Below, piece after piece: positions 3,335 to 36,723 of a DNA stretch of 38,021 nucleotides (the first letter of the stretch is position 1; every line of letters starts with the position of its first letter). Position numbers and translations under genes: made by a program. The notes below the pieces were generated by a model. The model had not been told where the DNA came from, did not search any database, and saw only the letters and a list, made by a program, of their open reading frames with translations. Source of the stretch: Nitrospiraceae bacterium (GTDB lineage Bacteria; Nitrospirota; Nitrospiria; Nitrospirales; Nitrospiraceae); the NCBI GenBank assembly GCA_014534095.1, contig JACVSD010000003.1:1-38021 (forward strand). Direction: 5' to 3'.

Positions 3335-3613
3335 CTATTGGTTCAGCAACTCCTTGAGTTCTTTGCCGGCTTTGAAAAACGGGACGCGCTTCGCGGGGAC
3401 CGCCACCGTCGCGCCGGTCTTGGGATTCCGCCCTTCTTTCATCCGACGGGCCCGCAGACGGAAACTGCCGAACCCACGGATCTCAGTCTTGTCACCATTC
3501 TTCAACGAGTCGCGGACGCAATCAAAGATGGTGTTGACCACCACCTCGGCTTGGCGCTTGGTCAACGTAGTCACTTGTTCGGAAACTCGTTCGATGATCT
3601 GTGCTTTAGTCAT
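3335..3613 (-). CDS. ihfB: IHF-beta/HU family DNA-bending protein
   Basis: A 92-residue nucleoid protein. It has the family's N-terminal helical dimer part (MTKAQIIERVSE) and then the beta-arm region with GFGSFRLRARRMKEGRNP. The GRNPKTG signature and the proline that intercalates in DNA are both present. The length fits HU or IHF subunits, usually 90-100 residues. The order rpsA...ihfB occurs in many proteobacteria, which favours the IHF-beta name. The sppA gene lies between them here. No alpha subunit is in the window, so it may act as a homodimer, and HU is an equally fair name. A second family member sits at 27516. Confidence 0.9.
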   Translation of the reverse strand: MTKAQIIERVSEQVTTLTKRQAEVVVNTIFDCVRDSLKNGDKTEIRGFGSFRLRARRMKEGRNPKTGATVAVPAKRVPFFKAGKELKELLNQ

Positions 3614-3664
3614 GCGCTCCCCCCTTCGTCCCTTGGTAAACCCATGCGACGCGATCTGACACGG

Positions 3665-4602: not shown

Positions 4603-6312
4603 TTAGTCATCTGCGTGCGATCGTTTCCGGCTTTGTTTCGCCGCACGTCCGAGGCTCTGATCCAATACGCCCTGAGAGGCATGATAGTCGTCGACCTGCT
4701 TTCGATCGGTATCCGTTTGGTGCTCACGAAGGCTCAAGGCGATTTTCCGCTCGTCACGATCCACCTTGATAATCTTCGCCGTCACATCTTCTCCGAGCTT
4801 GAACCGGTCTTCCAGCTTCGCGTTCGAATCCAGGCCGGATTCGCTGATGTGAATCAAGCCTTCCACCTCGCCGTCCAGTTCGACGAACAGGCCGAAATCC
4901 GCAACCTTGCTCACCTTCCCGGTGACGGCATCGCCAACGTGATACCGGGCGGGAATTTCATCGTCCCACGGATCACGCGTCAGCTGCTTGTACCCCAGCG
5001 ACAACCGCTCCTTGTCCTTATCGATGCGCAGGACGACGGCTTCCACCTTCTGCGCCTTCTTGAATAGCTCGGAAGGATGCTTGATGTGCTTGGTCCAGGA
5101 CATATCGGAGATATGAATCAGCCCATCGATCCCCTCTTCCAGGCCGATGAAGGCCCCGAAATCCGTCAGGCTCTTCACCTTGCCTTCGATCCGGGTCCCG
5201 ATCGGATACTTGCTCTCAATCATATCCCAGGGATTTGGCGCGGTTTGTTTCATGCCCAATGATATCTTCCGACTCCCTGGATCGACGTTGAGCACTGCCG
5301 CTTCCACCTGATCGCCTACGGACACCACGCGCGACGGATGCCGCACTTCATGGGTCCACGACATCTCGGAGACATGGACCAGACCTTCGACGCCCGGCTC
5401 AAGTTCGACAAAGGCTCCATAGTCGGTGAGACTCACCACCCGGCCACGGACCCGCGTCCCGATCGGATATTTCCCCGCGACGTTCGTCCACGGATCGGCG
5501 CTCTTTTGTTTGACACCAAGAGAAATGCGGCCGGTTTCACGATCATACTTCAGCACATTCACTTCGACTTTATCTCCGACGCTGAACATTTCCGAGGGAT
5601 GGCCGACGCGGCCCCAAGACATGTCGGTGATGTGCAACAATCCGTCAATCCCGCCCAAATCGATGAAGGCACCATAATCCGTGATGTTCTTCACCATGCC
5701 GGGAATCAACTGGCCTTCCTTCAGATTGGCGAGCGTGGTCTTTCGCTTCGAGTCGCGCGTCTCTTCCAACAACACTCGCCGCGATACGACCACGTTGCCC
5801 CGCCGATGATTGATCTTGATGATCTTCAGCGGGAAGGTTTTTCCGACAAGCCCGTCAAGATCGCGGACCGGGTGCAGGTCGATCTGCGAACCGGGGAGGA
5901 ACGCCTTGACTCCGATGTCCACCATCATGCCACCCTTGATCCGCGACACGATTTTTCCCTCGATGCTTTTCTCGTCCTTGTAGAGCTTCTCGAGTTCTTC
6001 CCAAATCTTCATTTTGTCGGCTTTTTCTTTGGAAAGAACAAGATTACCGTCCGCGTCCTCGCATTCCTCGATATACACTTGCAGGCGATCGCCGACCTTC
6101 AAGTTCTGCAACTCCTCGCTGGAGAATTGATCTCCGGCGATCATTCCTTCGGATTTGTAGCCGATATCCACGACTACTTTGTCCTTCGTCAGAGCCACGA
6201 CACGGCCTTCCGTGATCGTCCCTTCTTGAAGATTGCGGAAGGTCTCTTCGTACAACGCGGCAAGCGCGTCGCGATCTAATTGTGCATCACTGCCTGTGGA
6301 CACGGTACCCAT
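4603..6312 (-). CDS. rpsA: 30S ribosomal protein S1
   Basis: A 569-residue protein with six S1 RNA-binding repeats, the full proteobacterial-type set. Repeats 1 and 2 (about residues 30-100 and 115-185) are divergent, as expected for the ribosome-binding end. Repeats 3-6 carry the classic pattern V-x-x-(I/L)-T-D-(Y/F)-G-A-F-(V/I) followed by HISDMSW-like strands. The length matches E. coli S1 (557 residues). S1 binds mRNA leaders and helps start translation on structured messages. It is co-oriented with plsC and cmk upstream, reproducing the widely conserved cmk-rpsA pair. The C-terminal tail after repeat 6 is basic and short. Confidence 0.97.
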   Translation of the reverse strand: MGTVSTGSDAQLDRDALAALYEETFRNLQEGTITEGRVVALTKDKVVVDIGYKSEGMIAGDQFSSEELQNLKVGDRLQVYIEECEDADGNLVLSKEKADKMKIWEELEKLYKDEKSIEGKIVSRIKGGMMVDIGVKAFLPGSQIDLHPVRDLDGLVGKTFPLKIIKINHRRGNVVVSRRVLLEETRDSKRKTTLANLKEGQLIPGMVKNITDYGAFIDLGGIDGLLHITDMSWGRVGHPSEMFSVGDKVEVNVLKYDRETGRISLGVKQKSADPWTNVAGKYPIGTRVRGRVVSLTDYGAFVELEPGVEGLVHVSEMSWTHEVRHPSRVVSVGDQVEAAVLNVDPGSRKISLGMKQTAPNPWDMIESKYPIGTRIEGKVKSLTDFGAFIGLEEGIDGLIHISDMSWTKHIKHPSELFKKAQKVEAVVLRIDKDKERLSLGYKQLTRDPWDDEIPARYHVGDAVTGKVSKVADFGLFVELDGEVEGLIHISESGLDSNAKLEDRFKLGEDVTAKIIKVDRDERKIALSLREHQTDTDRKQVDDYHASQGVLDQSLGRAAKQSRKRSHADD

Positions 6313-6367
6313 GTGAGCATCCTACTCTTCCGACTCCCGTCGGGTGCTGATGGTGAAAAGCCCGGGC

Positions 6368-7060
6368 TCACTCAGCATTGCGAGCGCCGGCGGTCATACT
6401 GTTCGGTGTCTGCCGCGACGGGTCATCCTTACCCTTAGGGGCCGGAACTTGCCCCAGACCCGCGATGTGCTCGATCACCGTCCGACTGACCTGTTCATAG
6501 AATCGCTTACTTTCTACCTTCTCGTTCTGACCTGCCGTCTTGAACGTGAGCGGGCCGCCGAATCGCACGGTCACCTGCCGGAACCTCGGCCACCAGGCTC
6601 CAGAGGGCAAGGCCTCGAACGTCCCTTTGAGATACGCCGGCACAACCGGACAGCCCGTTTGCGAGACAATCACTCCGATGCCCGCCTTGGGCTGACGCAA
6701 ATGGCCATCATGGCTGCGTCCGCCTTCCGGAAAAATGACCACCACGTGGCCCGCTTGAATCAGGGTGATCGCCTTGCCAAAGGCCTGGCGATCCAATCGA
6801 CCCAGGCGTAACGGTATCCATCCTAAAGATTGGAGAATGCCGTTCAGAACCGGGACCGGAAACAAATCGCTACGCCCCAGATACCAAGCTCGCCGCTTCA
6901 TCCCGCAGCCAAGAAGCGGGATGTCCAGATAGCTGGCGTGGTTGGCGGCGACCAGCACTCCACCCTCGAGAGGAATCGTCCCTTCCACCCGATACCGAAA
7001 ACAGATCCACGCAATTGCCCTGGTGACCACCCACAGAACGCCGTATACAAATCCCGTCAC
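6368..7060 (-). CDS. plsC: 1-acyl-sn-glycerol-3-phosphate acyltransferase (PlsC-like)
   Basis: A 230-residue membrane-associated acyltransferase that adds the second acyl chain to lysophosphatidic acid, making phosphatidic acid. An N-terminal hydrophobic helix is followed by the catalytic block I, NHASYLDIPLL (an HX4D motif), and block III, FPEGGRSHDG, for the phosphate of the substrate. The start codon GTG at 7060 overlaps the TGA stop of cmk by four bases (GTGA), so the two are translationally coupled. A PlsC-like gene between cmk and rpsA is an insertion relative to the common cmk-rpsA order. The exact acyl acceptor cannot be read from the sequence. Confidence 0.88.
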   Translation of the reverse strand: MTGFVYGVLWVVTRAIAWICFRYRVEGTIPLEGGVLVAANHASYLDIPLLGCGMKRRAWYLGRSDLFPVPVLNGILQSLGWIPLRLGRLDRQAFGKAITLIQAGHVVVIFPEGGRSHDGHLRQPKAGIGVIVSQTGCPVVPAYLKGTFEALPSGAWWPRFRQVTVRFGGPLTFKTAGQNEKVESKRFYEQVSRTVIEHIAGLGQVPAPKGKDDPSRQTPNSMTAGARNAE

Positions 7061-7716
7061 GACGCAGCCGACACCGCCGCCATCATCTGCGCCACGACTT
7101 CCTCGATGTTAAGAGCCGAGGTGTCAATATGTCGGGCGTCCGCCGCCGCGATCAAGGGCGCAATAGCACGGGTGCGATCCCGGTTATCTCGGCCAGAGAG
7201 ATCCTGGTACGTCTTTTCCATCGCCGCCTGATGGCCGGCTGCCACGAGTTCTCTGTGCCGGCGGTCCGCCCGAACAGTGACGTCCGCGTCTAGAAAGAAC
7301 TTCAGCGGAGCAGACGGGAACACGCGAGTCCCGATGTCGCGGCCTTCCGCTACGACGGACCCTCGTTGCCCGATTTGCCGCTGGACAGGAAGCAGCCACT
7401 CTCGCACGGCCGGGATGGCGGACACCACAGACGCCGATGCGGAGACCTCCGGAGACCGGAGTTCATGCGTGACATCGCGGTCATCGACCGACACCGTCAT
7501 CCCGCCGTTCTTGAACTGCATCTGAATCGACGTGTTGGCTAACAAGTGGGATACGGCTTTGTGATCAGTCGGCTCGACGTTCTGACGCAGGACCTTCCAG
7601 GCCACGGCTCGGTAGAGCGCACCCGTGTCCAGATAGAGATAGCCCAGACGAGCGGCCAATAGCTTAGCCACCGTACTCTTGCCAACGCCGGCGGGTCCAT
7701 CAATGGCGATAATCAC
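7057..7716 (-). CDS. cmk: cytidylate kinase
   Basis: A 219-residue nucleoside monophosphate kinase that phosphorylates CMP and dCMP with ATP. The P-loop GPAGVGKST lies at residues 7-15. It is followed by LDTGALYRAVAWK for the monophosphate and by the family segment VVAEGRDIGTRVFP (about residues 120-133). The Arg-rich lid near DNRDRTRAIAPL is present. The length equals typical bacterial Cmk (about 220-230). The start codon is GTG at 7716. It follows aroA and overlaps plsC. The chain aroA-cmk-rpsA is a well-known conserved neighbourhood. Confidence 0.96.
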   Translation of the reverse strand: MIIAIDGPAGVGKSTVAKLLAARLGYLYLDTGALYRAVAWKVLRQNVEPTDHKAVSHLLANTSIQMQFKNGGMTVSVDDRDVTHELRSPEVSASASVVSAIPAVREWLLPVQRQIGQRGSVVAEGRDIGTRVFPSAPLKFFLDADVTVRADRRHRELVAAGHQAAMEKTYQDLSGRDNRDRTRAIAPLIAAADARHIDTSALNIEEVVAQMMAAVSAAS

Positions 7717-7758
7717 ACGATGCTCCGTACTGATACAGTGCCCTCGCGACGACCGCCC

Positions 7759-9087
7759 TCATACTTTCGATGCTCCGCTCAACAGCGTGCTCAGCGTGGA
7801 GTCAAAGCCGGGAAACGACGTATCCACACAGGCCGTGTCGGCAATGGTCATGCCTTGCTCCGCTGTAAGGCCGGCAATGGCGAGTGACATGGCCACTCGA
7901 TGATCGCCATGGCTGCGTGCATGGCTCGCGGCACGTAGCCGACCGTTCTTGCCGGGTCCCCCGAGTCCTTTAATCACCATCCCGTCGCTCTTTTCTATGA
8001 TCTGCGCCCCCATGGCTGTTAATTCAGCGCTCATCGTGGCGATGCGGTCACTTTCCTTGACTCGAAGCTCTTCTGCCCCGCGAATGACTGTCTCGCCTTC
8101 GGCCACCGCGGCAGCCACGCACAGGATCGGAAACTCATCGATGGTCTGCGGAATCAGCTCTCCGCCGATGGCAACGCCAGTGAGTGGAGCGGAAGTGACT
8201 CGCAGATCGGCCACCGGCTCTCCTGCCTCTTCACGAACGTTAAGGATCTGAATCGTAGCCCCCATGCTCCGCAGCACCTGGATCAATCCCGTCCTCGTCG
8301 GATTGATGCCGACATGCCGGATGGTCACATCGGATCCCGGAACGATCGTGGCGCCCACCATGAAGAAAGCGGCCGCAGACGAGTCTCCTGGGATCATCAC
8401 GCGGCGTCCTCCCCAGCCCACAGCGGGACGACCCTCCAGGACTAACGTATCGCCCTGGCGGACCAGGGGAAGTCCAAAAAATTCAAACATGCGCTCGGTG
8501 TGATCTCGGGACAAGCGCGGTTCAACAAAGCGCGTCGTGCCCTCGGCAAACAAACCGGCCAACAGCACGGACGACTTCACTTGTGCGCTCGCCACCGGCG
8601 AACGATAGCTGATGCCATGCAACCGCGTCCCCGTTATGGCCAATGGGGCCAGTTCCCCACCTTTCCTCCCGGCAATGGCAGCCCCCATGTCTCGCAATGG
8701 GGTGACCACCCGGCCCATCGGCCGCCGCCTGATTGAGTGATCACCGGTAAGGACCGTAAAAAAATCCTGGCCGGCCAGCAGCCCTGCCAACAGACGAATG
8801 CCAGTACCGGAATTGCCGCAATCGATCGGTTCGCCGGGTTCGGACAGGCCCCACAATCCTTTACCGTGCACCATCAGGTCGTCAGGCGTCTCATCGATCC
8901 GGATACCCATCGCCTGAAAGGCCCGCATGGTGTTCAGACAGTCCTCTCCGCGACAATAGTGCGAGACGACGCTTGTACCTTCTGCCAGGGCCGTCAGTAT
9001 GATGGCACGATGCGTGACGGACTTATCTCCCGGAACCGTGATCGATCCCCTGAGCGCCCGACCTGGGTTGATAGTTATTGACGCCAT
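7759..9087 (-). CDS. aroA: 3-phosphoshikimate 1-carboxyvinyltransferase (EPSP synthase)
   Basis: A 442-residue enzyme of the shikimate pathway that joins phosphoenolpyruvate to shikimate 3-phosphate. The N-terminal GDKSVTHRAIIL motif contains the substrate-binding Lys and Arg. GNSGTGIRLLAG (near residues 92-103) is the second signature, and the catalytic C-terminal DHRVAMSLAIAGL block is intact. The two-lobed fold length of 420-450 is normal. The usual LPG-type stretch after the GN motif is absent; GNSGTG with Gly-Ile-Arg is typical of class II-like or divergent enzymes. The gene starts six bases after the tyrA stop and leads into cmk. Confidence 0.96.
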   Translation of the reverse strand: MASITINPGRALRGSITVPGDKSVTHRAIILTALAEGTSVVSHYCRGEDCLNTMRAFQAMGIRIDETPDDLMVHGKGLWGLSEPGEPIDCGNSGTGIRLLAGLLAGQDFFTVLTGDHSIRRRPMGRVVTPLRDMGAAIAGRKGGELAPLAITGTRLHGISYRSPVASAQVKSSVLLAGLFAEGTTRFVEPRLSRDHTERMFEFFGLPLVRQGDTLVLEGRPAVGWGGRRVMIPGDSSAAAFFMVGATIVPGSDVTIRHVGINPTRTGLIQVLRSMGATIQILNVREEAGEPVADLRVTSAPLTGVAIGGELIPQTIDEFPILCVAAAVAEGETVIRGAEELRVKESDRIATMSAELTAMGAQIIEKSDGMVIKGLGGPGKNGRLRAASHARSHGDHRVAMSLAIAGLTAEQGMTIADTACVDTSFPGFDSTLSTLLSGASKV

Positions 9088-9093
9088 GATCGG

Positions 9094-9987
9094 TTAGGCC
9101 GGGACAGAGGCCTGCACATTGAGCTTTTCGCGTTCGCCTTTTGCCCGCTCCAGCGATTGCTCGATTCCTGTCGCATCGCCCGCCTGTATCAGCTGCTTTA
9201 ATTCCTCGAGCGCCCGCGCGTAGCCGTCGATAAAAGACACCACGTTATCCCGGTTCCAGAGAAAGATGTCGCGCCACATTTCCGGTGAACTGGCGGCAAT
9301 CCTCGTGGCGTCCCGTAAACCTCCACCGCTATGGCTCGCCAAGTCCAGAGCAGACAAATGGCGATCCCGCAGGTCGGCCAGGGCATTCATCATGGCAAAC
9401 GCGGCGGCATGCGGCAGATGACTGACCGCGCCCAGAATTTGATCATGGAGATGCGGCTCCATGGTCAGCACCAGCGCACCGGTCTCTTGCCATAGCTGGC
9501 GGATCTGCTCCAGCGCCCGGGCATCGGTCTTTGCGGTGGGCGTAATAATGCAGCGCGCCCCGGCGAACAGTTGGGCCGAGGCGGCAGCAACGCCCGTCTT
9601 TTCCTTTCCGGCAATGGGGTGCGCGCCGACGAAATGAACGCCCATCGGCATGGCGGATTCTGACTGTTCGACGAGATGGCCCTTGACGCTCCCTACATCG
9701 CTCACGATGGCACCCGCGGCCAAACAGTGCGCCCACTCCTTGAGATGCTCCTCATAAGTATCCACCGGCGTTGCCAGGATCACCAAATCGGATCCGCGCA
9801 CCCCTTCCTTCGGTTCTGAAACATAGCGGTCAATCGCGCCCAATTGAACCGCTCTGTCCAGGTTCTCGACACGGCGGCCGATGCCGACGACATGGTCTGC
9901 CAATCCCTGAGCGCGCATAGCCAGGCCCAGGGAACCGCCGATCAGACCCACGCCGATGATCGCTACCTGCTTAAAATGAACGGGCAT
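9094..9987 (-). CDS. tyrA: prephenate (or arogenate) dehydrogenase
   Basis: A 297-residue NAD(P)-dependent dehydrogenase of tyrosine synthesis. The Rossmann motif GVGLIGGSLG is near residue 12. The family segments DVGSVKGHLVE, GAHPIAGKEKTGV (substrate-binding His and Lys) and SHLPHAAAFAMMNAL follow. A helical dimerisation region completes the protein. There is no fused chorismate mutase and no C-terminal ACT domain, so it is a minimal TyrA. Chorismate mutase is supplied by the PheA fusion upstream. Whether prephenate or arogenate is preferred cannot be decided from the sequence alone. Confidence 0.94.
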   Translation of the reverse strand: MPVHFKQVAIIGVGLIGGSLGLAMRAQGLADHVVGIGRRVENLDRAVQLGAIDRYVSEPKEGVRGSDLVILATPVDTYEEHLKEWAHCLAAGAIVSDVGSVKGHLVEQSESAMPMGVHFVGAHPIAGKEKTGVAAASAQLFAGARCIITPTAKTDARALEQIRQLWQETGALVLTMEPHLHDQILGAVSHLPHAAAFAMMNALADLRDRHLSALDLASHSGGGLRDATRIAASSPEMWRDIFLWNRDNVVSFIDGYARALEELKQLIQAGDATGIEQSLERAKGEREKLNVQASVPA

Positions 9988-10006
9988 ATCGACTCATTGA
10001 TCCGGT

Positions 10007-11020
10007 TTAGATTTCGCGGGCGACCGCGCGCGCGATATTCCCCATATCGTGCATCAGCTCTTTGAACTTCGAAGGCTTGATGGATTCTTCTCCGTCACAG
10101 AGCGCACATTCGGGATTGGAATGCACTTCAATGAGCAGCCCGTCGGCGCCCGCCGCTACGGCCGCTTTTGACATCGGTGCAACGAGCGCCCACTTCCCGG
10201 TCGCATGACTGGGATCCACAATCACCGGTAGATGCGAGAGTTCTTTCAGCGTCGGAATGGCCGCCAGATCCAAGGTATTGCGATACTGCGTTTCGAACGT
10301 GCGGATGCCCCGCTCACAAAGCATCACGTTTCGGTTGCCCCGGGACATGATGTACTCCGCTGACAGCAGGAATTCCTTTATAGTCGCCGAAAGACCGCGC
10401 TTCAAGAGGACCGGTTTGTCGTAGGCGCCCACTTCCTTGAGGAGCTCAAAGTTCTGCATGTTTCTCGCGCCAATCTGAATAATATCGGCCTTCTCAAGAA
10501 ATAATTCGATATCGCGCGTATCGAGAATTTCGCTCACCACCGGCAGCCCCGTTTGCTTCTTCGCTTCCTGGAGATAATCCAATCCTTCCCGGCCCAACCC
10601 TTGGAAGGAATACGGTGACGTTCGCGGTTTGTAGGCTCCGCCTCGAAGGACTGACGCCCCGGCCGCTTTGACTTCATGGGCGATGCCAACCGTCAATTCC
10701 AGACGCTCCACAGCACAGGGCCCCGCCATGATCGCTAACTTCTTTCCGCCGATTTTCACGGCCCCGACTTCGATGATCGTGCCTTCACGCTTGAACTCAC
10801 GACTCACAAGTTTCCACGGAGCAAGGATGGGCAGCACGCTTTCGACACCGGCTAGAGCCGTCAGCGGCTGATTCTGAAGAATGCGGTCGTCCCCAATGAC
10901 GCCGATAATGGTGCGCTCCTGACCGGTCGAAATCTGGGACTTCAACCCCAACTCCCGGAGCCGATCAATAATGTGATCGACTTCACGTTCAGTCGCCTCA
11001 GGTTTCAGGACGATGATCAT
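10007..11020 (-). CDS. aroF: 3-deoxy-7-phosphoheptulonate synthase, type I beta with ferredoxin-like N-domain
   Basis: A 337-residue enzyme that condenses phosphoenolpyruvate and erythrose 4-phosphate, the entry step to aromatic compounds. Residues 1-70 form a small ferredoxin-like regulatory domain seen in Thermotoga-type enzymes. The catalytic barrel follows, with IMAGPCAVE (metal-binding Cys), [37 protein letters not shown] and [11 protein letters not shown]. The length and domain order fit the type I beta subfamily and not the E. coli AroFGH subfamily. The ATG at 11020 has GAGG five bases upstream. Feedback by phenylalanine or tyrosine is common for enzymes with this N-domain but is inferred here. 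Confidence 0.95.
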
Positions 11021-11044
11021 AGTGCCCTCGCGATCCAGCTCTTC

Positions 11045-12121
11045 CTACTGTAAAACCTTTTTCAGGGCCTGAAGGAAGGCGTTATTTTCGTCAGGTTGAC
11101 CGATGGTAACCCGGAGCATCCGGCCTTCGATATGCCGCACAATAATGCCTTCGCGCAGGAGCGCATCGAAGACCGGCCTTCCGTCGCGCTTGACATCGAA
11201 ATACACAAAATTTGCTTCGCTCGGGAGAGGATGAAAACCGAGCGCACCAAGACCATGGCGCAATTGCTCCATACCCGCCACGTTGGTCGCCCGGCTCTTC
11301 GCCACATGGTCATCATCGGTCATGGCGGCCAGCGCTGCGCGCTGGGCCAGGCTATTGGCGTTAAACGGAGGGCGGATACGGTTGAGGTGGTTGTTTATCT
11401 CCGGCAGGGCGATGCCATAGCCGATCCGCAATCCTGCCAAGCCGTAGATTTTTGAAAATGTCCTTAACACAATGGCCTGGCGGCCGTCCTTGACGTAGGC
11501 GAGCGTGTCGGGAAAATCGGCACTCTGTACATATTCCAGATACGCCTCATCGAATACGACAATAACGTCTTCGGGAATCTGAGCCATGAACCGATGCACC
11601 GCTTCTGCCGACACCATCGTGCCAGTCGGGTTGTTGGGATTACACACAAATACAAGCCGAGTCCTGGGCGTAATCGCGGACGCCATCGCGTCAAGATTAT
11701 GCGCCCAGTCGGAAAGCGGAACGGTCACCGCCTTGCCATGAGCGGCCACGACTTCCATTCGATAAATGACGAAGGTGTGATCGGCCATCACGGCTTCCTC
11801 GCCGGGCGACAAAAAGGTGCGGGCCAAGAGGCCCAATATTTCATCAGACCCGTTACCAAGGATGATGTGGTCGGGCGTCACTTTCCATCGGTCGGCAATG
11901 GCTTGTCTCAGTCGATACGCCCCACCATCCGGGTAGCGGTGCAGGCTTTCCGCTCCCCCGGTCAGCGCGGCCACCGCCTTAGGCGAAGGGCCCAGCGGGT
12001 TTTCGTTCGAAGCGAGCTTAATAATACGCGTGAGTCCGAGCTCGCGCTGCAGTTCATCGATGGGCTTGCCTGGCACGTAGGGGCTGAGTGACGCGATATC
12101 AGGATGGACGTGTAGTGCCAT
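11045..12121 (-). CDS. hisC: histidinol-phosphate/aromatic aminotransferase
   Basis: A 358-residue PLP-dependent fold-type I aminotransferase. The motif KLASNENPLGPSP opens the enzyme. GNGSDEILGLLARTF, CNPNNPTGT, VVFDEAYLEY and the Schiff-base lysine segment RTFSKIYGLAGLRIGYG (Lys in SKIYG) are all intact. The family acts on histidinol phosphate, and members inside aromatic operons often transaminate prephenate, phenylpyruvate or 4-hydroxyphenylpyruvate. The position between pheA and DAHP synthase, away from other his genes, points to an aromatic role. Dual function is possible. It starts four bases after the pheA stop. Confidence 0.94.
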   Translation of the reverse strand: MALHVHPDIASLSPYVPGKPIDELQRELGLTRIIKLASNENPLGPSPKAVAALTGGAESLHRYPDGGAYRLRQAIADRWKVTPDHIILGNGSDEILGLLARTFLSPGEEAVMADHTFVIYRMEVVAAHGKAVTVPLSDWAHNLDAMASAITPRTRLVFVCNPNNPTGTMVSAEAVHRFMAQIPEDVIVVFDEAYLEYVQSADFPDTLAYVKDGRQAIVLRTFSKIYGLAGLRIGYGIALPEINNHLNRIRPPFNANSLAQRAALAAMTDDDHVAKSRATNVAGMEQLRHGLGALGFHPLPSEANFVYFDVKRDGRPVFDALLREGIIVRHIEGRMLRVTIGQPDENNAFLQALKKVLQ

Positions 12122-12125
12122 GTGC

Positions 12126-13202
12126 CTAGGCGTGCGCCGGGTAGGAACCCAAAATCTTGAGAAACAGGCAGCGCCCCTTGATTTCTTCCACCGCCTTATT
12201 CACGCGTTCTTCTGCCATATGGCCCTCAACATCCACGAAAAAGATGTATTCCCAAGCTTTCCTGCGGGAAGGGCGCGATTCGATCTTGGTCATGCTGAGG
12301 CCATGCGACGCAAAGGGACGCAGCAAATCATACAAGGCGCCGACCTTATCCTTCACGGACAACATCAGAGAGGTCTTGTCCTTGCCCGTCCGCTCAGGCG
12401 CCTTTTGGGAAAGCACTAAAAATCGCGTGAAATTGTTCAGATTGTCTTCGATGCGCGATTTGATCACCTTCAGGCCATAGAGCTGCCCGGCCAATTCCGA
12501 GGCAATGGCCGCGGAAGCCGGCTCATCCATGCAGAGTTCCGCGGCGCGTGCCGTGCTCGCCACCTCGGAAACGGGCACGTGGGGGAGATTGGTTTCTAGC
12601 CAATTGCGGCATTGCGCAATGGCGTGAGGGTGCGAGTAGATCTTCTTCACTTCGTCCCCCACTCCGGACTGCGATAACAGATGATGCGAGACCTCCTGCT
12701 GAACTTCGCCATAAATCAGGAGGTTCGAATCCACGAACATGTCGAGCGTATGATTCACGACCCCTTCGGTCGTATTCTCAATGGGCACGACCCCGAAGTT
12801 CGCGCGACCCCGCTCGACCTCGCTGAACACCTCCTTGATACTGTGGACGGGGACATACTGAGCAGAGGAGCCGAATTTCTGCATGCAGGCCATGTGCGTG
12901 AAGGTGGCACGTGGACCGAGATAGGCCACCTTTTGCGGTCCCTCCAAGGAAAGGGAAGCCGACATGATTTCTCGATAAACCGCCCGAATCGCGTCAGTAG
13001 GGAATGGGCCCGTATTCTGCTTCATCAACCGATCAAAAATAGCCGCTTCTCTCCCTGGTGTATGGAGGTTGGCTTCGGCATCTTGTTCTTTTTTTAGCTT
13101 TCCGATCTCGACGACGCTTTTGGAACGCTCGTTGAGCAGGCGTAGAATTTCGTCATCGATACGGTCGATCTCGCTGCGGTACTCGGACAAATCCCTGGGC
13201 AT
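12126..13202 (-). CDS. pheA: bifunctional chorismate mutase / prephenate dehydratase
   Basis: A 358-residue fusion that leads chorismate to phenylpyruvate. Residues 1-85 are an AroQ chorismate mutase (EYRSEIDRIDDEILRLLNER). The dehydratase follows, from VAYLGPRATFTHMA, with the catalytic Thr-Arg-Phe segment NNFTRFLVLS. A C-terminal ACT domain has the GALYDLL and ESRP motifs that bind phenylalanine, so feedback inhibition is expected. The ATG at 13202 is chosen because the mutase domain begins there and the length matches other PheA fusions. The frame stays open for 35 more codons upstream, but that stretch resembles no known domain. It is the first gene of the aromatic unit. Confidence 0.95.
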   Translation of the reverse strand: MPRDLSEYRSEIDRIDDEILRLLNERSKSVVEIGKLKKEQDAEANLHTPGREAAIFDRLMKQNTGPFPTDAIRAVYREIMSASLSLEGPQKVAYLGPRATFTHMACMQKFGSSAQYVPVHSIKEVFSEVERGRANFGVVPIENTTEGVVNHTLDMFVDSNLLIYGEVQQEVSHHLLSQSGVGDEVKKIYSHPHAIAQCRNWLETNLPHVPVSEVASTARAAELCMDEPASAAIASELAGQLYGLKVIKSRIEDNLNNFTRFLVLSQKAPERTGKDKTSLMLSVKDKVGALYDLLRPFASHGLSMTKIESRPSRRKAWEYIFFVDVEGHMAEERVNKAVEEIKGRCLFLKILGSYPAHA

Positions 13203-13282
13203 TGACGCGAACCTCGGACTTCTGGACTGAGGGATGGCGCCCATCCCCGATGAAGAATCAACCACACTTGGACAAGGGGTGA

Positions 13283-13312
13283 ATCTTACAGGAACGGCCG
13301 AATCCATTGCAA
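13283..13312 (-). promoter_or_regulatory. candidate promoter of the aromatic unit
   Basis: On the minus strand TTGCAA (13312-13307), 18 bp, then TAAGAT (13288-13283), about 80 bases before the pheA ATG. It lies in the 146-base gap between the ruvB stop and pheA. That gap is the only clear break in the series of minus-strand genes here. No leader peptide or attenuator hairpin was recognised. The call is tentative. Confidence 0.35.
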
Positions 13313-21077: not shown

Positions 21078-21875
21078 TTACATGTACCCATCTTTGCGTA
21101 ACAACTCCATCCCGCGCCCTTCGTCTTGGGCACGCCCTGACCGCTCGGCCACGGTCGTGAGCCGAAGTTCGTCAATAATGTCGTCCACCGTTTTTGCCGT
21201 GGACTTGATGGGCGTCGTGCAAGGAGCGCAGCCCAGACTCCGGTATCGAGTCCCATCTCCCTTGTCGAGATACAGATCGATGAAAGGGATTTGCTCGAGT
21301 TTGATATATTCCCAAATATTGATCTCCGTCCAATCGAGCAATGGATGTATCCGGATATGCGTACCCGGTGGGAATGTCGTCTTATATTGGTCCCAGAGTT
21401 CCGGCGGTTGATCCCGAAAGTCCCAGTCGCCGTGTTTGTCGCGGGGAGAGAAATAGCGCTCTTTCGCTCTCGTGCCTTCTTCGTCGGCCCGAACACCGAG
21501 AATCACGCCGGTATATCCCTTTTGCTCCAGCAGCTGCTTGAGCCCGTTCGTCTTTAACGCCGTACAACAGGTCACGCGACCCATCGTGTGATTCATGCCT
21601 GCTGCGAGAGCCTCCTTGTTTTGCCCTACGACCAGATCGAGCCGCCATTCACGCGCCAAGCGGTCACGGTACTCGATCATCGCGGGGATCTTATAACTCG
21701 TATCCACATGGAGCAGAGGAAAGGGCACATGACCAAAAAAGGCCTTCCTCGCGAGCCACAGGAGCACCGTGGAATCTTTGCCCATGGACCACAGCATGGC
21801 CAGATTATCAAAATGTTTGTACGCCTCCCTGAGGATGTACACGCTTTGGTCTTCCAGTTGCCGTAGATGCTTCAC
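21078..21875 (-). CDS. cysD: sulfate adenylyltransferase subunit 2
   Basis: A 265-residue catalytic subunit of ATP sulfurylase, making adenosine 5'-phosphosulfate from sulfate and ATP. It belongs to the PP-loop family: [17 protein letters not shown] holds the ATP-binding loop. [34 protein letters not shown] and [13 protein letters not shown] are family blocks. The start is the GTG at 21875 ([10 protein letters not shown]), which matches the usual CysD start. AGGAAAGGA lies about nine bases upstream. It starts 16 bases after the TrpD-like gene. It pairs with the CysN part of the next gene. Confidence 0.96.
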
Positions 21876-21891
21876 GATCCGTAATCCTTTC

Positions 21892-22953
21892 CTATCGCGA
21901 GAATCCTGACGATGCCGCCGCCATTGGGGCTTGCACCAATTCATCCAGCTTCCGTCCCGCCGCGCCGCCGTCAATTGCTGCCCGCGCCAGGGCAAGACAG
22001 GCCGTGACGGACGCGCCCTTTCCAGCCGCGTACAGGATCATCGCCGCGTTCATCAACACCCATTCCTTTTGTCCGCCCTGCACCTGATTTCGTAAGATAC
22101 GTCCCAGTAAGTCGGCTTCCTTCGCTCGCTGTTCTGCCGGAAAGCCGGCCATCTCGCGGGCCGTCGTAAATGGCAGGCCGAAGTCCTTGGGGCTTACACC
22201 CCACGGCGTGATTCGTTCCTCTCGCAGTTCCAACACTCGCGTGACCATGGAGCCCGACAGCTCCGGATCACCTTCGACACCGCGTATCACGAGCGCGCGA
22301 GGGCACCCGAGCATTCGGAGGGCCTCGACGGTCTTCTCAAAATGCGGCGGATGTGAAAGGCCCACCACCTGCGCCGCCGCTCTGGCCGGATTCAACAGCC
22401 TCGCCACCGGATGAAACACATTTCTGACGCCCAACTCTTGCCGCATTTCCAAGAACCGGTAGACGGGCGGATGATAGAGGCCAATATCGAGATAGGCGAA
22501 CCCCTTGTTGTTCACCTCATCCGCCACCACAATGGACTCCAAATCGACCGGAATACCTAATGCCTTCAGGACGCCCGCGCTGCCCGCCCGGCCGGGGACA
22601 CCATCATACCCGTGCATCAGGACAGCAACACCGGCTGAGACGGCCACAATGCAGGCGGCAATGAGAGCATGAAACGTGTCTTGTTTGCCCGCATAGGTCG
22701 GCACATCGACGAGCGCCAAATCTTTCGACACCGGAAGCGGCGCCACATAGTGCCGGGCCGCGGCTGTGAAGGCGGCCAGTTCTGTGACCGATTCCATCTT
22801 AAACCGCATGGCAATCAAAAAGGCGCCCACCTGCGCAGGGGTGGCCTGCCCTTCGATTAAGGCTTTGACCGCTTGCTTGGACTCTTCCCAGGTGAGGTCT
22901 TTCGAGGCCTTGGGGCCCTTGGCAATTTTCGCCAGGATATCTTGAATAGGCAT
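21892..22953 (-). CDS. TrpD/glycosyltransferase family 3-like protein in the sulfur operon
   Basis: A 353-residue protein with the two-domain layout of anthranilate phosphoribosyltransferase: an N-terminal helical domain (about residues 1-75) and a phosphoribosyltransferase-type alpha/beta domain. The classical pyrophosphate motif GTGGD is replaced by [11 protein letters not shown] (near residue 105), so the protein is not TrpD proper. [17 protein letters not shown] and [14 protein letters not shown] match the YbiB/TrpD2-like branch. Members bind nucleic acids or have unknown substrates. The ATG at 22953 follows the cysH stop by one base, so the genes are coupled. The place between APS reductase and cysD suggests a role in sulfur metabolism, but this is inference. 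Confidence 0.8.
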
Positions 22954-27515: not shown

Positions 27516-27788
27516 ATGACGAAAGAAGAAATCATCGCAAGGATGGCCGCGTCTGCGGGCATTACAAAGCTTGCCGCCGGTACGGCACTTCAAGCTTTTA
27601 CCGGAGCCGTGACCGCGTCCCTGAAGAGAGGGCAGCGGGTCTCTCTCATCAACTTCGGTACGTTCACCATCTCAAAGCGCAAAGCTCGCATCGGACGCAA
27701 CCCAAGGACGGGGGCCGCACTCAAGATTCCAGCTGCCAAAGTGCCCAAGTTCTCTGCCGGGAAGGAACTGCGTTCTGCGGTGAAGTAA
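27516..27788 (+). CDS. hup: HU family DNA-binding protein
   Basis: A 90-residue histone-like protein. The N-terminal dimer part starts at MTKEEIIARMAASAG. The DNA-arm has INFGTFTISKRKARIGRNP with the GRNPRTG signature, and the C-terminal helix KFSAGKELRSAVK is intact. The ATG at 27516 has AAGGAGG eight bases upstream. An upstream start at 27489 is rejected because it adds residues before the ribosome site. It is the second HU/IHF-type gene in the window and differs clearly from that at 3335. The Fis-like gene lies just before it. No clear terminator was found after it. Confidence 0.92.
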   Translation: MTKEEIIARMAASAGITKLAAGTALQAFTGAVTASLKRGQRVSLINFGTFTISKRKARIGRNPRTGAALKIPAAKVPKFSAGKELRSAVK

Positions 27789-31333: not shown

Positions 31334-33052
31334 CTAGGGCAGATCGACAAGCTGGGACAAATTGACGTCGAAGGACACAACGGGCACGGCGAGTTGCCAG
31401 CGTTCGAGGACTTCCGGATGGACCTCACCGATGATACCAATCGGTTTATCGGCCACCATGATCCGGCCGGCCCGGCCTTCCAAAAACGAGGGATGCGGAA
31501 CAGGCTCCAGAGTGTACTCCTTGCCGAGGTGATAGAACAGCACGTCGAGGCACGAATGGATCTCAGAAAAGTGTGCAGTAGCGTGCGCGATGACTGCACC
31601 CAGGACGGTTTCGGTTCGGGACCCCAATACATGTGCACGATCCGGGATGCCGACATCGCCCGCTTCAAATAGGCGATGCGGATAAAAGGCACGGCTCGAC
31701 GCCGTTTCAACACGTAACAGCGACGGCAGCATCCATTGCCGCAAGCAAGAGAATGTGACCGCCATGGCGTTATCGACCTCCACCATCCGCCCCCATTCCG
31801 TCCCATCGATACGCATTGCGGTACGATAGTGTTCCGGCGATCCCAATATGTTGGAGATGATCTCCTGAAATCCTAGCCCGACCATCAGTTCACGCGCCCG
31901 GTCGGACGTGTACTCAATACGTGAGAGGCCTCCTACGGTAAACTGCGCCGGCATCACCGGAGCGAATGCGCCATACCCTTCGCTAATGGCCACATCTTCG
32001 ACGACGTCCATCGGATGCATGACGTCATGCCGGTAGGGTGGTAGCTTAGCTTTGATGGTGCGTTTCCCCTCTGATACATCGTAGCCATACGCTTCGAGCG
32101 CCTGCGTCACGGTCTTCACGCCGAGTTCCTGACCCAGTGCTTGCTCGATGGTTTCGATCGCGATCGTGCGCACCGTGCCGAGATCTTGGGGCGTGACGAC
32201 TCGCTTGCCCAGCGCGGTACCGGTGGGATACTGGACTTCAATCCGGTCGATGGCGGCGCCACGATCTGCAAGATTGACCGCAAAGATATTGAGGGTCAAC
32301 ACGACCATCGGCAAGTCCGTCCCGGTCACCTCGACGAACAGCTCATCATCCCCTACGCGTACCTCACCGATCTCCCGACTGTTGATGATCGGAGGAAATG
32401 ACAAGGGCTGATCCTTCGCATCACGCAGAACAGGCAGCCGGCTATGCCCCGCAAGAATATGCCCGTATTCGAGCCCCTTCGGATGAACCATCAGCATTTC
32501 AGACAGCGTCATCACGGTGTCCATTCCAAGCGGCATAAAACGGGCCTCATCCGGCTGCACCAATTCGTATCGGACAGGGAACTCAATCTTCGGCAACTGA
32601 TACATGCCGATGGAAACGGTCTTTCGTTTGTGCCCGAATATGTCAGCCAGCTTCTCTTGGGTCTGAATCAGCTGGGCCAATCCTTCGGTCGTCACCCGAT
32701 ACCCTTTAGCCGTGCAGGCTGCGACATAGGGCCGCACTCGTTCAAGGCCTGGGCCCACAATCAGGCGCTGAGGAGATGCAGGCTTCTGGTGGAAAAAGGC
32801 ATACGGCTCCAGGCTACCGCGTCGCTTAATGCGGATTTGTCGCGCAATGCCCTCGCAACACCAGAGGTCTGGCCGGTTACTGTCCTGTTACTCGATTCGA
32901 ACTTCGCCGCTTTCGCTGTGATGGCCCTTTAGCTCCCCCTTGACGAGCATGAGCCATTCTTCTAGTTGCTCGATCGAGATAGCACAGGCGGCAGAGCGAT
33001 CACCGCCGAGAAGGGATTCGAGGTCCTTTTTAAAGATAGAAATGGTCGGCAT
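31334..33052 (-). CDS. pheT: archaeal-type phenylalanyl-tRNA synthetase beta subunit, interrupted by an in-frame TAA
   Basis: The frame from the ATG at 33052 (MPTISIFKKDLESLL) to 31334 has 572 codons and stays in one frame, but codon 55 (32890-32888) is TAA. Before it comes GEVRIE, after it QDSNRPDLWCCEGIARQIR, the conserved N-P/D-RPDL-EGIAR motif. So the stop cuts a continuous gene. It may be a point error, a real mutation or read-through. The protein is of the short archaeal/eukaryotic PheT type (about 550-600 residues). The B5-like motif YRHDVMHPMDVVEDVAISEGYG (first 20 residues enough) is present, and the FDX-ACB and EMAP-like parts of the usual bacterial 800-residue form are missing. The next in-frame start after the TAA, GTG 32758, would lack about 98 residues. 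The ATG lies eight bases after pheS. Confidence 0.8.
32888..32890 (-). other. pheT: in-frame TAA within pheT
   Basis: The three bases read TAA on the minus strand in the pheT frame. Homologues that I know from spirochaetes and archaea have a hydrophobic residue, often Leu, at this position (IE-L-x-D-x-NRPDLW). A single change from TTA (Leu) would explain it. No frameshift is involved. Confidence 0.8.
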
Positions 33053-33060
33053 AGGTTGAT

Positions 33061-34623
33061 TTAAAACATGCCCCTAGTCGTCCGAATGAGTTCCAGGTTG
33101 TCGGTAAACAATTCGCGTATGTCATGAATGCCCAACGCCACCATAGCCATTCGATCCAGTCCGAGCCCCCAGGCGATCACGGGGACTTTGATGCCTAATG
33201 GCAAGGTCACTTCCGCACGAAACAGGCCGGCACCGCCTAGTTCCATCCACCCCAGGCGGGGATGCCGCACATGCATTTCAACCGACGGCTCGGTAAAAGG
33301 GAAATAGGCAGGCAGGAACTTGACGTCCTTGGCTTGGGCCACTTCCCGTGCGAATAAATTCAACAGTCCGAGCAGTATCCGGAAATTAATGTCCTCGCCT
33401 AAGACGATGCCTTCAACTTGGAAGAAGTCAGTGGCGTGGGTTGCGTCCACCTGGTCGTATCGGAAACAGCGGGCAATCGAAAAGTATTTTCCCGGTATCG
33501 CCGGCGCAGACGACAGGGTTCTCGCAGACACTGCCGTCCCTTGGCTCCGTAACACCAACCGCTTCGCTCGCTTGGCGTTAAAGCTGTACTTCCACCCCGT
33601 GGAGCCGGTATCCCCGCCGTTCTCGTGCGTCTGCGTGACGCGGCTCAGAAACGGCTCAGCAATCTCGGTGGCATATGCCGGTTCCTTGACGAAGTACACA
33701 TCATGAATGTCACGGGCGGGATGGAATTGCGGCATGAACAACGCATCCATGTTCCAGAACTCGGTTTCAACCAAAGAACCGCGCATCTCTTGAAACCCCA
33801 TACTCACGAGCTTCGTCTTGACGGTATCTAGAAACTCTCGATAGGGATGTTTTTTTCCGACTGCAATACGAGGGGCCCGCAAACCGATGGTGTATTTCCT
33901 GAAGCGTTTTCCGCGCCAGCTGCCATCCTTCAGGAGATCCGGGCTGAGCTGCGAGACCTCGTCCATCACCCCGAGATTGGCCAGATGCCCAGCCGCGGCC
34001 AAACCCATGGGCGAAAGCGCAAAGGCTCGACCCACACGGTCGTCCACCCGGAAGGGCTCTTTGGCATTGCCGCGTTTCACGGCATGGTCTTGGATGATCT
34101 GCTGCTCGAAGTCAGAAAGCTCGGCGAGTTCTCGCGGGTTTTCATGAACTAACCGAAGAAGCGCACGGAGCGCCTCAGCTGAGGGACTGGGCCGTCCAGT
34201 GGATTCAATGCAGCCGCCCTGCACAATCAGCAGCACGCCCTCCTTCTTGAGCCGGCCGACGGCCTTGCTGACGTCGGACGGATCTAGCCCTTCCATGGTT
34301 TGCAAATCTGGAATTGTGAGACGCTTCCCCGCGGTCGCGGCTTCACGGACCGCCGCGAGGATCCGTTCGATCGGAGCAGACGACGCAACATATGACTCAC
34401 CAACGGCGGTGAGCGTTACCGTAGGGGTCACGGTCTCGGAATGGATGACGAGCAAACCTTTGGCTAGCAGCCACTCCACTGCCATGCTGAGCTGCGATGG
34501 CTCCAAGTCCGTCCCGGCCGCCAACTGCTCGGTGGAAAGTATGATTCCAGAACTGCTTCCAAAGGCTTGCAGCAGTTTGACTTCGAGGGGATGGAGACTG
34601 TCGAACGAATCCGAGATGTTCAC
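33061..34623 (-). CDS. pheS: archaeal/eukaryotic-type phenylalanyl-tRNA synthetase alpha subunit
   Basis: A 520-residue class II synthetase subunit. The N-terminal 180 residues are winged-helix-like modules (LHPLEVKLLQAFG, LTAVGESYVASSAP, DPSDVSKAVGRLKKEGVL), the hallmark of archaeal and eukaryotic PheS; normal bacterial PheS is about 340 residues with a coiled coil. The core has FHPARDIHDVYFV, motif 2 FRYDQVDATHATDFFQVEG and motif 3 GLGLDRMAMVALGIHDIREL. The GTG at 34623 (VNISDSFDSLHPL) is chosen: AGGT lies eight bases before it and the rpe stop ten bases before. The longer ORF upstream would overlap rpe. Spirochaetes also have this type, so lateral origin is plausible. The pheT gene follows. 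Confidence 0.92.
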   Translation of the reverse strand: MNISDSFDSLHPLEVKLLQAFGSSSGIILSTEQLAAGTDLEPSQLSMAVEWLLAKGLLVIHSETVTPTVTLTAVGESYVASSAPIERILAAVREAATAGKRLTIPDLQTMEGLDPSDVSKAVGRLKKEGVLLIVQGGCIESTGRPSPSAEALRALLRLVHENPRELAELSDFEQQIIQDHAVKRGNAKEPFRVDDRVGRAFALSPMGLAAAGHLANLGVMDEVSQLSPDLLKDGSWRGKRFRKYTIGLRAPRIAVGKKHPYREFLDTVKTKLVSMGFQEMRGSLVETEFWNMDALFMPQFHPARDIHDVYFVKEPAYATEIAEPFLSRVTQTHENGGDTGSTGWKYSFNAKRAKRLVLRSQGTAVSARTLSSAPAIPGKYFSIARCFRYDQVDATHATDFFQVEGIVLGEDINFRILLGLLNLFAREVAQAKDVKFLPAYFPFTEPSVEMHVRHPRLGWMELGGAGLFRAEVTLPLGIKVPVIAWGLGLDRMAMVALGIHDIRELFTDNLELIRTTRGMF

Positions 34624-34633
34624 CCTGCGGTAC

Positions 34634-35329
34634 CTATGGGTGCACCGAGGCCGCCGGCATGGCGGATGTTTCGGCCGCTCCCCGCAATGCCGCAATAGTC
34701 GCCTTGTAGTCGGGGTAACAAAAGATCGCGGATCCAGCCACGAGTGCCGTGGCGCCGGCTTCCACAATCTGCCGGGCGTTTTCAACTTTTACCCCGCCGT
34801 CCACTTCGAGCAGCGCGGAACTGTTGGCGTGATCCAGCATGGCACGTGCCGCCCGGATCTTTCTGAGAACAGCGGGGATGAATTTCTGTCCCCCGAACCC
34901 GGGATTCACGGACATTACCAACAGCAGATCGATGTCAGGCAGAATTTCTTCCAGTGATTGCAGCGTAGTGGCAGGGTTGAGGGTCACCCCGGCCTTAACT
35001 CCGCGCTCCTTGATGGACTCGACGGTGCGATGCAAATGAGGACAGGCCTCAACATGGACCGTCAAATAATCAGCGCCGGCTTCGGCAAACTCCTGTATGA
35101 ATGCGTCAGCATTCGTGATCATTAAATGGACGTCCAGAGGCAGCTTGGTCACCTTCTTTAAGCTTTCCACGATAGGGGGACCGACGGTCAAGTTCGGTAC
35201 AAAATGACCATCCATCACATCGACGTGCAACAGATCCGCTCCTCCCCGCTCGACCGCCGCGACCTCCTCGGCAAGACGCGCAAAATCCGCCGAGAGAATC
35301 GACGGCGCGATGAAGACTGGATGGCCCAT
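34634..35329 (-). CDS. rpe: ribulose-phosphate 3-epimerase
   Basis: A 231-residue TIM-barrel enzyme that interconverts ribulose 5-phosphate and xylulose 5-phosphate. The family blocks are APSILSADFARLAEEV, LLHVDVMDGHFVPNLT (metal-binding His and Asp), VHLMITNADAFIQEFAEAGAD, VMSVNPGFGGQKFIP and the C-terminal DGGVKVENARQIVEAGA. The ATG at 35329 shares one base with the rsmB stop (TGATG) and gives the usual length. It is coupled with rsmB and followed by pheS after ten bases. Pentose phosphate supply for nucleotides or for the DAHP synthase substrate is the general role. Confidence 0.96.
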   Translation of the reverse strand: MGHPVFIAPSILSADFARLAEEVAAVERGGADLLHVDVMDGHFVPNLTVGPPIVESLKKVTKLPLDVHLMITNADAFIQEFAEAGADYLTVHVEACPHLHRTVESIKERGVKAGVTLNPATTLQSLEEILPDIDLLLVMSVNPGFGGQKFIPAVLRKIRAARAMLDHANSSALLEVDGGVKVENARQIVEAGATALVAGSAIFCYPDYKATIAALRGAAETSAMPAASVHP

Positions 35330-36723
35330 CACGAGACCTTTCTCATACGGACGGCGTAAAAAGCGTCCATTCCACAATCATTGCTCATGGTCGACAATGC
35401 ACCCTGCGGAGTTACGAACGGAAGAGCCGAAGGGGGTACCCAGGGCGCAACGCTTTCCCGCTGCCACTGCTGATGGTGGTGACAGAACTGCTCTATCACC
35501 TCCTCCGTTTCTTCTGGTTCGATGGAGCACGTACTATAGACCAGCACCCCGTCGGGCCGCAAGACAGCACCAACGGCCGCAAGGAGTTCGCACTGCAAAC
35601 GGTGGTGACGGGCGAACATGGCCGTATGTTTCTTCTGTTTCGCTTCGGGATGCCGACGCAGAACGCCAAGACCACTGCAGGGCGCGTCGAGCAACACCCG
35701 ATCTACGGAGGCGAGCACATGAGTGGAGAGCGCTTCCGCCGGTCTCCTGGCATCGCCAACTACGGGCATGACCGCAGTGGCGGAAAGGCGACGACAGTTC
35801 TCCTCAAGACGGACCACTCGATCCTTATGCCGATCCATGGCTACAATCCGTCCTTGGTTACGCATCAATTCAGCCAGATGGGTCGCTTTGCCTCCCGGAG
35901 CGGCACAGGCATCGAGAATGGTATGCCCGGGTTGAGGATCGAGAAGAGGCGGAATGAGTTGCGCCGCTTCATCTTCAACATAGAAGTGCCCTTCATCGAA
36001 ACCAGGAAGCGTCGTGACCTGCTGACCTTTGTCGAGGATCAGTCCAACCGGACTGATCCTAGTCGGCATGGCCGCAACACCGGCCGCTTGCAGCCGGACC
36101 AGAACAGCGTCTCTTGTCGCCCGTTGTTGATTCACACGCAGCGTCAGGGACGGCATGGCGCTGGCCGCGCGACAGACTGTCTCAGCCCGTTCAATCCCCA
36201 GCCGGTCAACCCAGCGCTGGCACAGCCAGAGAGGCAACGAATACGTTACTGATAGCGCCTCGCTCGGCTGACCGCGACGGTCGGGTGCGGGAGGCTCCGG
36301 TAGCCGGAGCAGGTTCCGTAAAACCGCATTGACGTAACCGGTCCAGTCTCGACCGAGCTGTTGGGAGTATGCTCTCGCGATCTTAACCGACTCGTCCACC
36401 GCCGCAGACGCCGGGATGCGATCAAGATAGAGCAGTTGGTAGGCGCCCATTCTGAGCAACATCTGAACCACGACGGGAAGACGGTCAAGCGGCTTTCTGA
36501 GAACCGGCCTCAAGCGCCAATCCAGCGTCTCCTTTCGCCGAAGCACTCCGGAGGCCAGTTCCATCGCGAGCGCGCGATCTCGTGGGTCAAACGCACCTCC
36601 CTTACAATTCTCATTCAGGAGTTCCTCGACCGCGCCATCTCCGCTGTGTGTGGAAAGAAGGATAGACAAGGCGGCAGCTCGCGCAGGTGACCGTTCGGTA
36701 GGCGGGGAGCTTTCAGCCTTCAT
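35329..36723 (-). CDS. rsmB: 16S rRNA (cytosine-967-C5)-methyltransferase RsmB
   Basis: A 464-residue SAM-dependent RNA methyltransferase. The N-terminal NusB-like domain (about residues 10-150, ALAMELASGVLRRKETLDWR) precedes the Rossmann core with DACAAPGGKATHLAELM for SAM. Its two catalytic cysteines lie in LDAPCSGLGVLRRHPEAK and STCSIEPEETE. The NusB-plus-Fmu layout is typical for RsmB (about 430 residues). The ATG at 36723 has GGAA before it; a TTG six codons upstream is possible. It follows fmt and overlaps rpe by one base. The fmt-rsmB pair is common in bacteria. Confidence 0.94.
   Translation of the reverse strand: MKAESSPPTERSPARAAALSILLSTHSGDGAVEELLNENCKGGAFDPRDRALAMELASGVLRRKETLDWRLRPVLRKPLDRLPVVVQMLLRMGAYQLLYLDRIPASAAVDESVKIARAYSQQLGRDWTGYVNAVLRNLLRLPEPPAPDRRGQPSEALSVTYSLPLWLCQRWVDRLGIERAETVCRAASAMPSLTLRVNQQRATRDAVLVRLQAAGVAAMPTRISPVGLILDKGQQVTTLPGFDEGHFYVEDEAAQLIPPLLDPQPGHTILDACAAPGGKATHLAELMRNQGRIVAMDRHKDRVVRLEENCRRLSATAVMPVVGDARRPAEALSTHVLASVDRVLLDAPCSGLGVLRRHPEAKQKKHTAMFARHHRLQCELLAAVGAVLRPDGVLVYSTCSIEPEETEEVIEQFCHHHQQWQRESVAPWVPPSALPFVTPQGALSTMSNDCGMDAFYAVRMRKVS

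Follow-up and report, generated by a model that had tools for sequence, protein, structure and literature searches.

Results

An interrupted pheT gene and its surroundings

In the window, by which we mean the whole 38,021-nucleotide stretch of DNA that was analysed, the following features lie at the locus.

33061..34785, minus strand: pheS, intact, given here as its longest ORF; the true start is probably near 34626
31334..33052, minus strand: pheT, archaeal-type phenylalanine--tRNA ligase beta subunit, with a single interruption (432 bits to TIGR00471 after the stop, full-length alignment to relatives)
32888..33052, minus strand: N-terminal piece of pheT, 54 codons plus TAA, in which purifying selection persists (pN/pS roughly 0.18-0.29)
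32888..32890, minus strand: in-frame TAA at codon 55, a leucine codon in relatives (seen in the translation, the bases and the codon alignment)
31334..32758, minus strand: ORF as a gene caller using ATG, GTG and TTG would give it, with a GTG start and 474 aa

The pheT frame runs from the ATG at 33052 to a TAG and comprises 573 translated positions, with codon 55 as the single internal stop in addition to the terminal one. Translation thus agrees with the earlier note, in which the frame was described as open except for the TAA at 32890-32888. The bases around codon 55 are ATC GAG TAA CAG GAC AGT AAC CGG. GTG 32758, which opens the 474-aa ORF, is codon 99 of pheT, and a start there would indeed cost the 98 residues that had been predicted. 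In the protein collection, the pheT of this contig is represented by two products, a 54-aa N-terminal piece and a 504-aa protein whose implied start codon is ATT 32848 (codon 69).

The only leucine codon one substitution away from TAA is TTA, which accounts for 53 of the 945 leucine codons over the 25 ORFs of the window included in the count and stands at codon 55 in 2 of the 42 relatives in the codon alignment. Since these 25 ORFs were picked as open and some of their starts are arbitrary, the absence of internal stops from them is uninformative.

The 517 residues after the stop matched TIGR00471 (pheT_arch) with 432.1 bits over model positions 50-550 of 551, passing the curated cut-off of 282.65 bits, while the N-terminal 54-codon piece alone gave no match in a Pfam search. 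When 23 relatives were compared by tblastn, 22 alignments began at codon 1 and crossed the stop; the remaining locus (L019) lacks the N-terminus. The pheT frame is no chance ORF, and the earlier claim that both flanks belong to one archaeal-type PheT holds, the TAA at codon 55 being what separates this gene from a PheT encoded in one uninterrupted reading frame.

The contig is Nitrospira-like: in the genome collection, all 23 confirmed loci carry Nitrospira, Nitrospiraceae, Nitrospirae or, in one case, Nitrosospira in their titles. Five related genomes are collinear with the window wherever the compared stretches reach, with pheT facing rplT; the window pheT is the native, syntenic gene and not a displaced copy. 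Directly upstream of pheT lies the intact pheS. Its longest ORF, which begins at TTG 34785, extends over part of the ORF 34634-35377; the true start is placed near 34626 because the alignments to two relatives begin there.

Codon 55 in relatives

The codon alignment has leucine at codon 55 in all 42 relatives and a stop in none, which confirms the view of the earlier note that this is a leucine position. Read individually, codon 55 could be determined in 22 of the 23 loci and was leucine throughout (CTG in 9, TTG in 6, CTA in 4, TTA in 2 and CTC in 1); most of these 22 loci are also among the 42 relatives. Eleven of the loci L001-L053 were omitted from the codon alignment, being identical copies or loci in which no full frame was found by the script.

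Three protein searches (the best 120 of 3946 matches, the best 120 of 215 and all 102) listed 301 database proteins, 294 of which cover codon 55, with leucine in 293 and valine in one. By construction, protein sequences cannot show a stop, yet they could show an end there, and no listed homologue ended at codon 54-55 apart from the window's own pieces. The seven listed proteins that do not cover the codon are the two window products, four ORFs whose alignment stops at codons 40-51, and a fragment from codon 120 (P0109), which is 93% identical, was apparently truncated where its contig ends and is uninformative on codon 55. A recurrent break at codon 55 in homologues was considered and rejected, as the breaks lie at scattered places.

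On the relatives compared, the stop is therefore private to this contig. Absence from independent relatives, here from all 42 in the codon alignment and all 294 listed proteins that cover the codon, is what a sequencing or assembly error predicts, whereas read-through or recoding predicts a stop conserved among relatives. The earlier note had held that a sense codon in related genomes would mark the TAA as a sequence error. The sense codon was found, but its weight is limited by distance: among the matches listed in the three protein searches, no homologue of more than 85% identity covers codon 55, and because the closest relative that does so is only about 85% identical, the comparison leaves room for a recent mutation in the strain.

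Selection on the interrupted gene

Against its 12 closest relatives, the window gene gave a pN/pS of 0.18-0.29 (mean 0.24) in codons 1-54, 0.14-0.27 in codons 56-110 and 0.13-0.16 in codons beyond 110; these values are rough, as pS in codons 1-54 is near saturation (0.62-0.85). Among the relatives themselves, 43 of 66 pairs were distant enough for the comparison, and their codons 1-54 gave 0.12-0.33 with a mean of 0.20. The ratio of pN in the N-terminus to that in the rest averaged 1.79 for the window, within the span of the relatives' means (1.19-2.02) but towards its upper end. Residues private to the window numbered 2 of 54 before the stop versus 20 of 517 after it (3 of 55, then 17 of 462), and of 260 columns without variation among the relatives, five differ in the window, one by the stop and four by amino-acid changes. 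The relaxed selection of a broken copy was not seen, pN/pS and private residues being as in the relatives.

These comparisons indicate that constraint persists in the 54 codons ahead of the stop and that pheT worked at full length until practically now. The stop must then have arisen very recently, be an artefact, or be translated through. A genuine nonsense mutation that arose very recently in the cell or strain sequenced, as a variant that is dying, rescued by a suppressor elsewhere in the genome or covered by a pheT copy off the contig, would also explain the constrained N-terminus.

Read-through, suppression and internal starts

Decoding of the stop by read-through, recoding or a suppressor tRNA, giving full-length PheT, would fit the open frame and the constraint seen both before and after the stop. 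We consider it very unlikely: in addition to the leucine found at this position in the relatives, TAA terminates 11 of the 25 window ORFs, including pheS, thrS and fmt, and no suppressor tRNA was found in the window, whose tRNAs are tRNA-Val and tRNA-Met only. Two 100-nt stretches after and around the stop gave RNA-fold z-scores of -0.46 and 1.13, like shuffled sequence. Nothing in the window points to a dedicated read-through mechanism.

Synthesis of PheT as two pieces, or by initiation at an internal codon after the stop, is scarcely credible. For it speak the 504-aa product listed from ATT 32848, which is preceded by GAGG (-5.3 kcal/mol with the anti-Shine-Dalgarno sequence), and the scores of the later in-frame codons GTG 32737, GTG 32695 and TTG 32680 (-3.2 to -4.5 kcal/mol). 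However, ATT is a rare start codon, and since the GAGG encodes a Glu-Gly that is conserved in the relatives, it is not special to this contig. GTG 32758 is a valine codon inside a conserved stretch and scored +1.2, and the homologues listed do not end where a first piece would. The native ATG of pheT has no Shine-Dalgarno motif either (+1.5); because the native starts of pheT, thrS and infC all lack one, a missing motif does not count against a start. Thus, of the three options that had been left side by side in the earlier note, read-through and translation in two pieces received no positive support, and sequence error is favoured.

Second copies and other PheT types

A search of the genus for archaeal-type PheT matched 74 of 79 genomes, with exactly one match in 69, more in 5 and none in 5, and a search of the family matched 169 of 175. 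Both were queried with the 517 residues after the stop, so that their count of internal stops is blind to codon 55; in the genus search, an internal stop was found in one listed row only, a TGA by a contig edge. The five genomes with more than one match hold a gene in pieces separated by N (G011), genes split over contigs (G024 and G052), one open gene reported twice (G068) and an extra 36-residue piece (G017). This small PheT C-terminus piece (G017:C6:564377-564484) lies ca. 8 kb from the main gene.

Several genomes were considered as parallels with a damaged pheT and rejected. The gene of G068 is open throughout; in G024, a single TGA falls three residues short of the end of a match that lies at a contig edge; N interrupts the gene of G011; in G020, the gene begins only at codon 108, next to 100 N; and G075 holds a piece at a contig edge that is open from codon 107 onwards. 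Just after the gene in G075 (L067, 321-386) lies a second, weak PheT C-terminus match holding one stop.

Bacterial-type PheT was not found above the family cut-off in any of ten related genomes. The matches below the cut-off fell on the archaeal-type gene and, at model positions 43-125, on another protein; in two of the ten genomes, the first match overruns the gene end and takes in one TAA, presumably the gene's own terminator. No plasmid copy of pheT was matched at near identity.

Loss of PheT should be lethal. A fresh nonsense mutation is in keeping with the absence of any other lesion from the compared stretch of the window, but in related genomes pheT is single or, in the others, absent or in pieces, with no bacterial-type PheT above the cut-off, and a variant that kills the cell would not be expected in a consensus sequence. 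We therefore regard such a mutation as unlikely.

Broken genes in assemblies and the state of the window

Broken pheT copies are common in assemblies, since of the 120 short homologues listed, 46 run out at scattered places into tails with no relation to PheT. The public pheT fragments P0200, P0201 and P0220 carry terminal tails such as EIGRAHV, which resemble translated sequencing adapters.

A lone stop was also met in another gene. In the Nitrospira assembly G001 (C9 stretch, L061), the frame of a cysD-like gene is open except for one in-frame stop, at a position occupied by Gly in the window. This gene is more than 93% identical to its homologue in the window (21081-21893, CysD by NF003587 with 365.7 bits), and its lesion may be an error or a mutation alike.

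In the window genes matched from ca. 14 to 38 kb, no other frame lesions were seen on comparison with relatives. Among eight ORFs in 4603-13307, six (rpsA, cmk, aroA, DAHP synthase, hisC and prephenate dehydratase) reached their NCBIfam cut-offs with matches spanning nearly the whole model or domain, and the prephenate dehydrogenase-like and acyltransferase-like ORFs scored below theirs. Genes for aromatic amino acids follow one another on the minus strand at 7057-13307: cmk, aroA, the prephenate dehydrogenase-like gene, DAHP synthase, a hisC-like aminotransferase and chorismate mutase/prephenate dehydratase. Two HU/IHF-like DNA-binding proteins of ca. 90 aa are encoded at 27516-27785 (plus strand) and 3350-3628 (minus strand); the best-scoring models, HU-beta at 97 bits and IHF-beta at 109 bits, did not reach their curated cut-offs.

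Discussion

We put at roughly three in four the probability that the TAA is an assembly artefact in which one base was substituted, through a read error or a low-coverage consensus; the contig itself appears to be a metagenome-type assembly. The affected gene would then be the ordinary, intact and essential pheT of a Nitrospira-like bacterium that is uncultured, with leucine encoded at position 55 in the living cell and PheT synthesised as a single chain of 572 residues.

This explanation is favoured by a stop private to one contig, by constrained and syntenic sequence on both sides of it, by 54 N-terminal codons without decay, by the gene order shared with five related genomes, and by the lack of a visible PheT backup in related genomes; a lesion of this kind also occurs in the cysD-like gene of G001. 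Against it stand the otherwise clean state of the compared window, a source codon (TTA) that is a minority leucine codon here, and the lack, among the matches listed, of a same-species sequence with a sense codon at 55. In addition, most broken public copies show frame or chimera breaks and not one substituted codon. Taken together, an error most likely accounts for the stop rather than a fresh mutation, as far as sequence comparison can tell.

If the TAA is an error, the matter is one of annotation only: a start at GTG 32758 drops 98 residues and one at ATT 32848 drops 68. If the stop is real, a natural essential gene would be read through UAA, which would be surprising. It is extremely unlikely that the TAA is real and fixed in a Nitrospira strain in which UAA is efficiently decoded by a suppressor tRNA or a weakened release factor. 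Such decoding would tie phenylalanine charging to termination efficiency, as the PheT product charges tRNA-Phe. Most probably, the lone stop represents no new way of reading genes, and instead a one-base error or a rare fresh mutation.

Compared with the archaeal-type PheT of Nitrospira (TIGR00471), the window gene is alike in its ca. 81-85% identity to the nearest full-length relatives, its gene order, its partner pheS and the conserved motif after the stop, and differs in the TAA at codon 55, which is absent from the relatives covering that codon. With genes broken by assembly errors it shares a lesion confined to a single assembly, as in the scattered breaks of pheT and the lone stop of the cysD-like gene in G001. 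Most of the listed pheT breaks are unrelated tails of indel, chimera or adapter-like kind, whereas in the window pheT the frame resumes after one codon.
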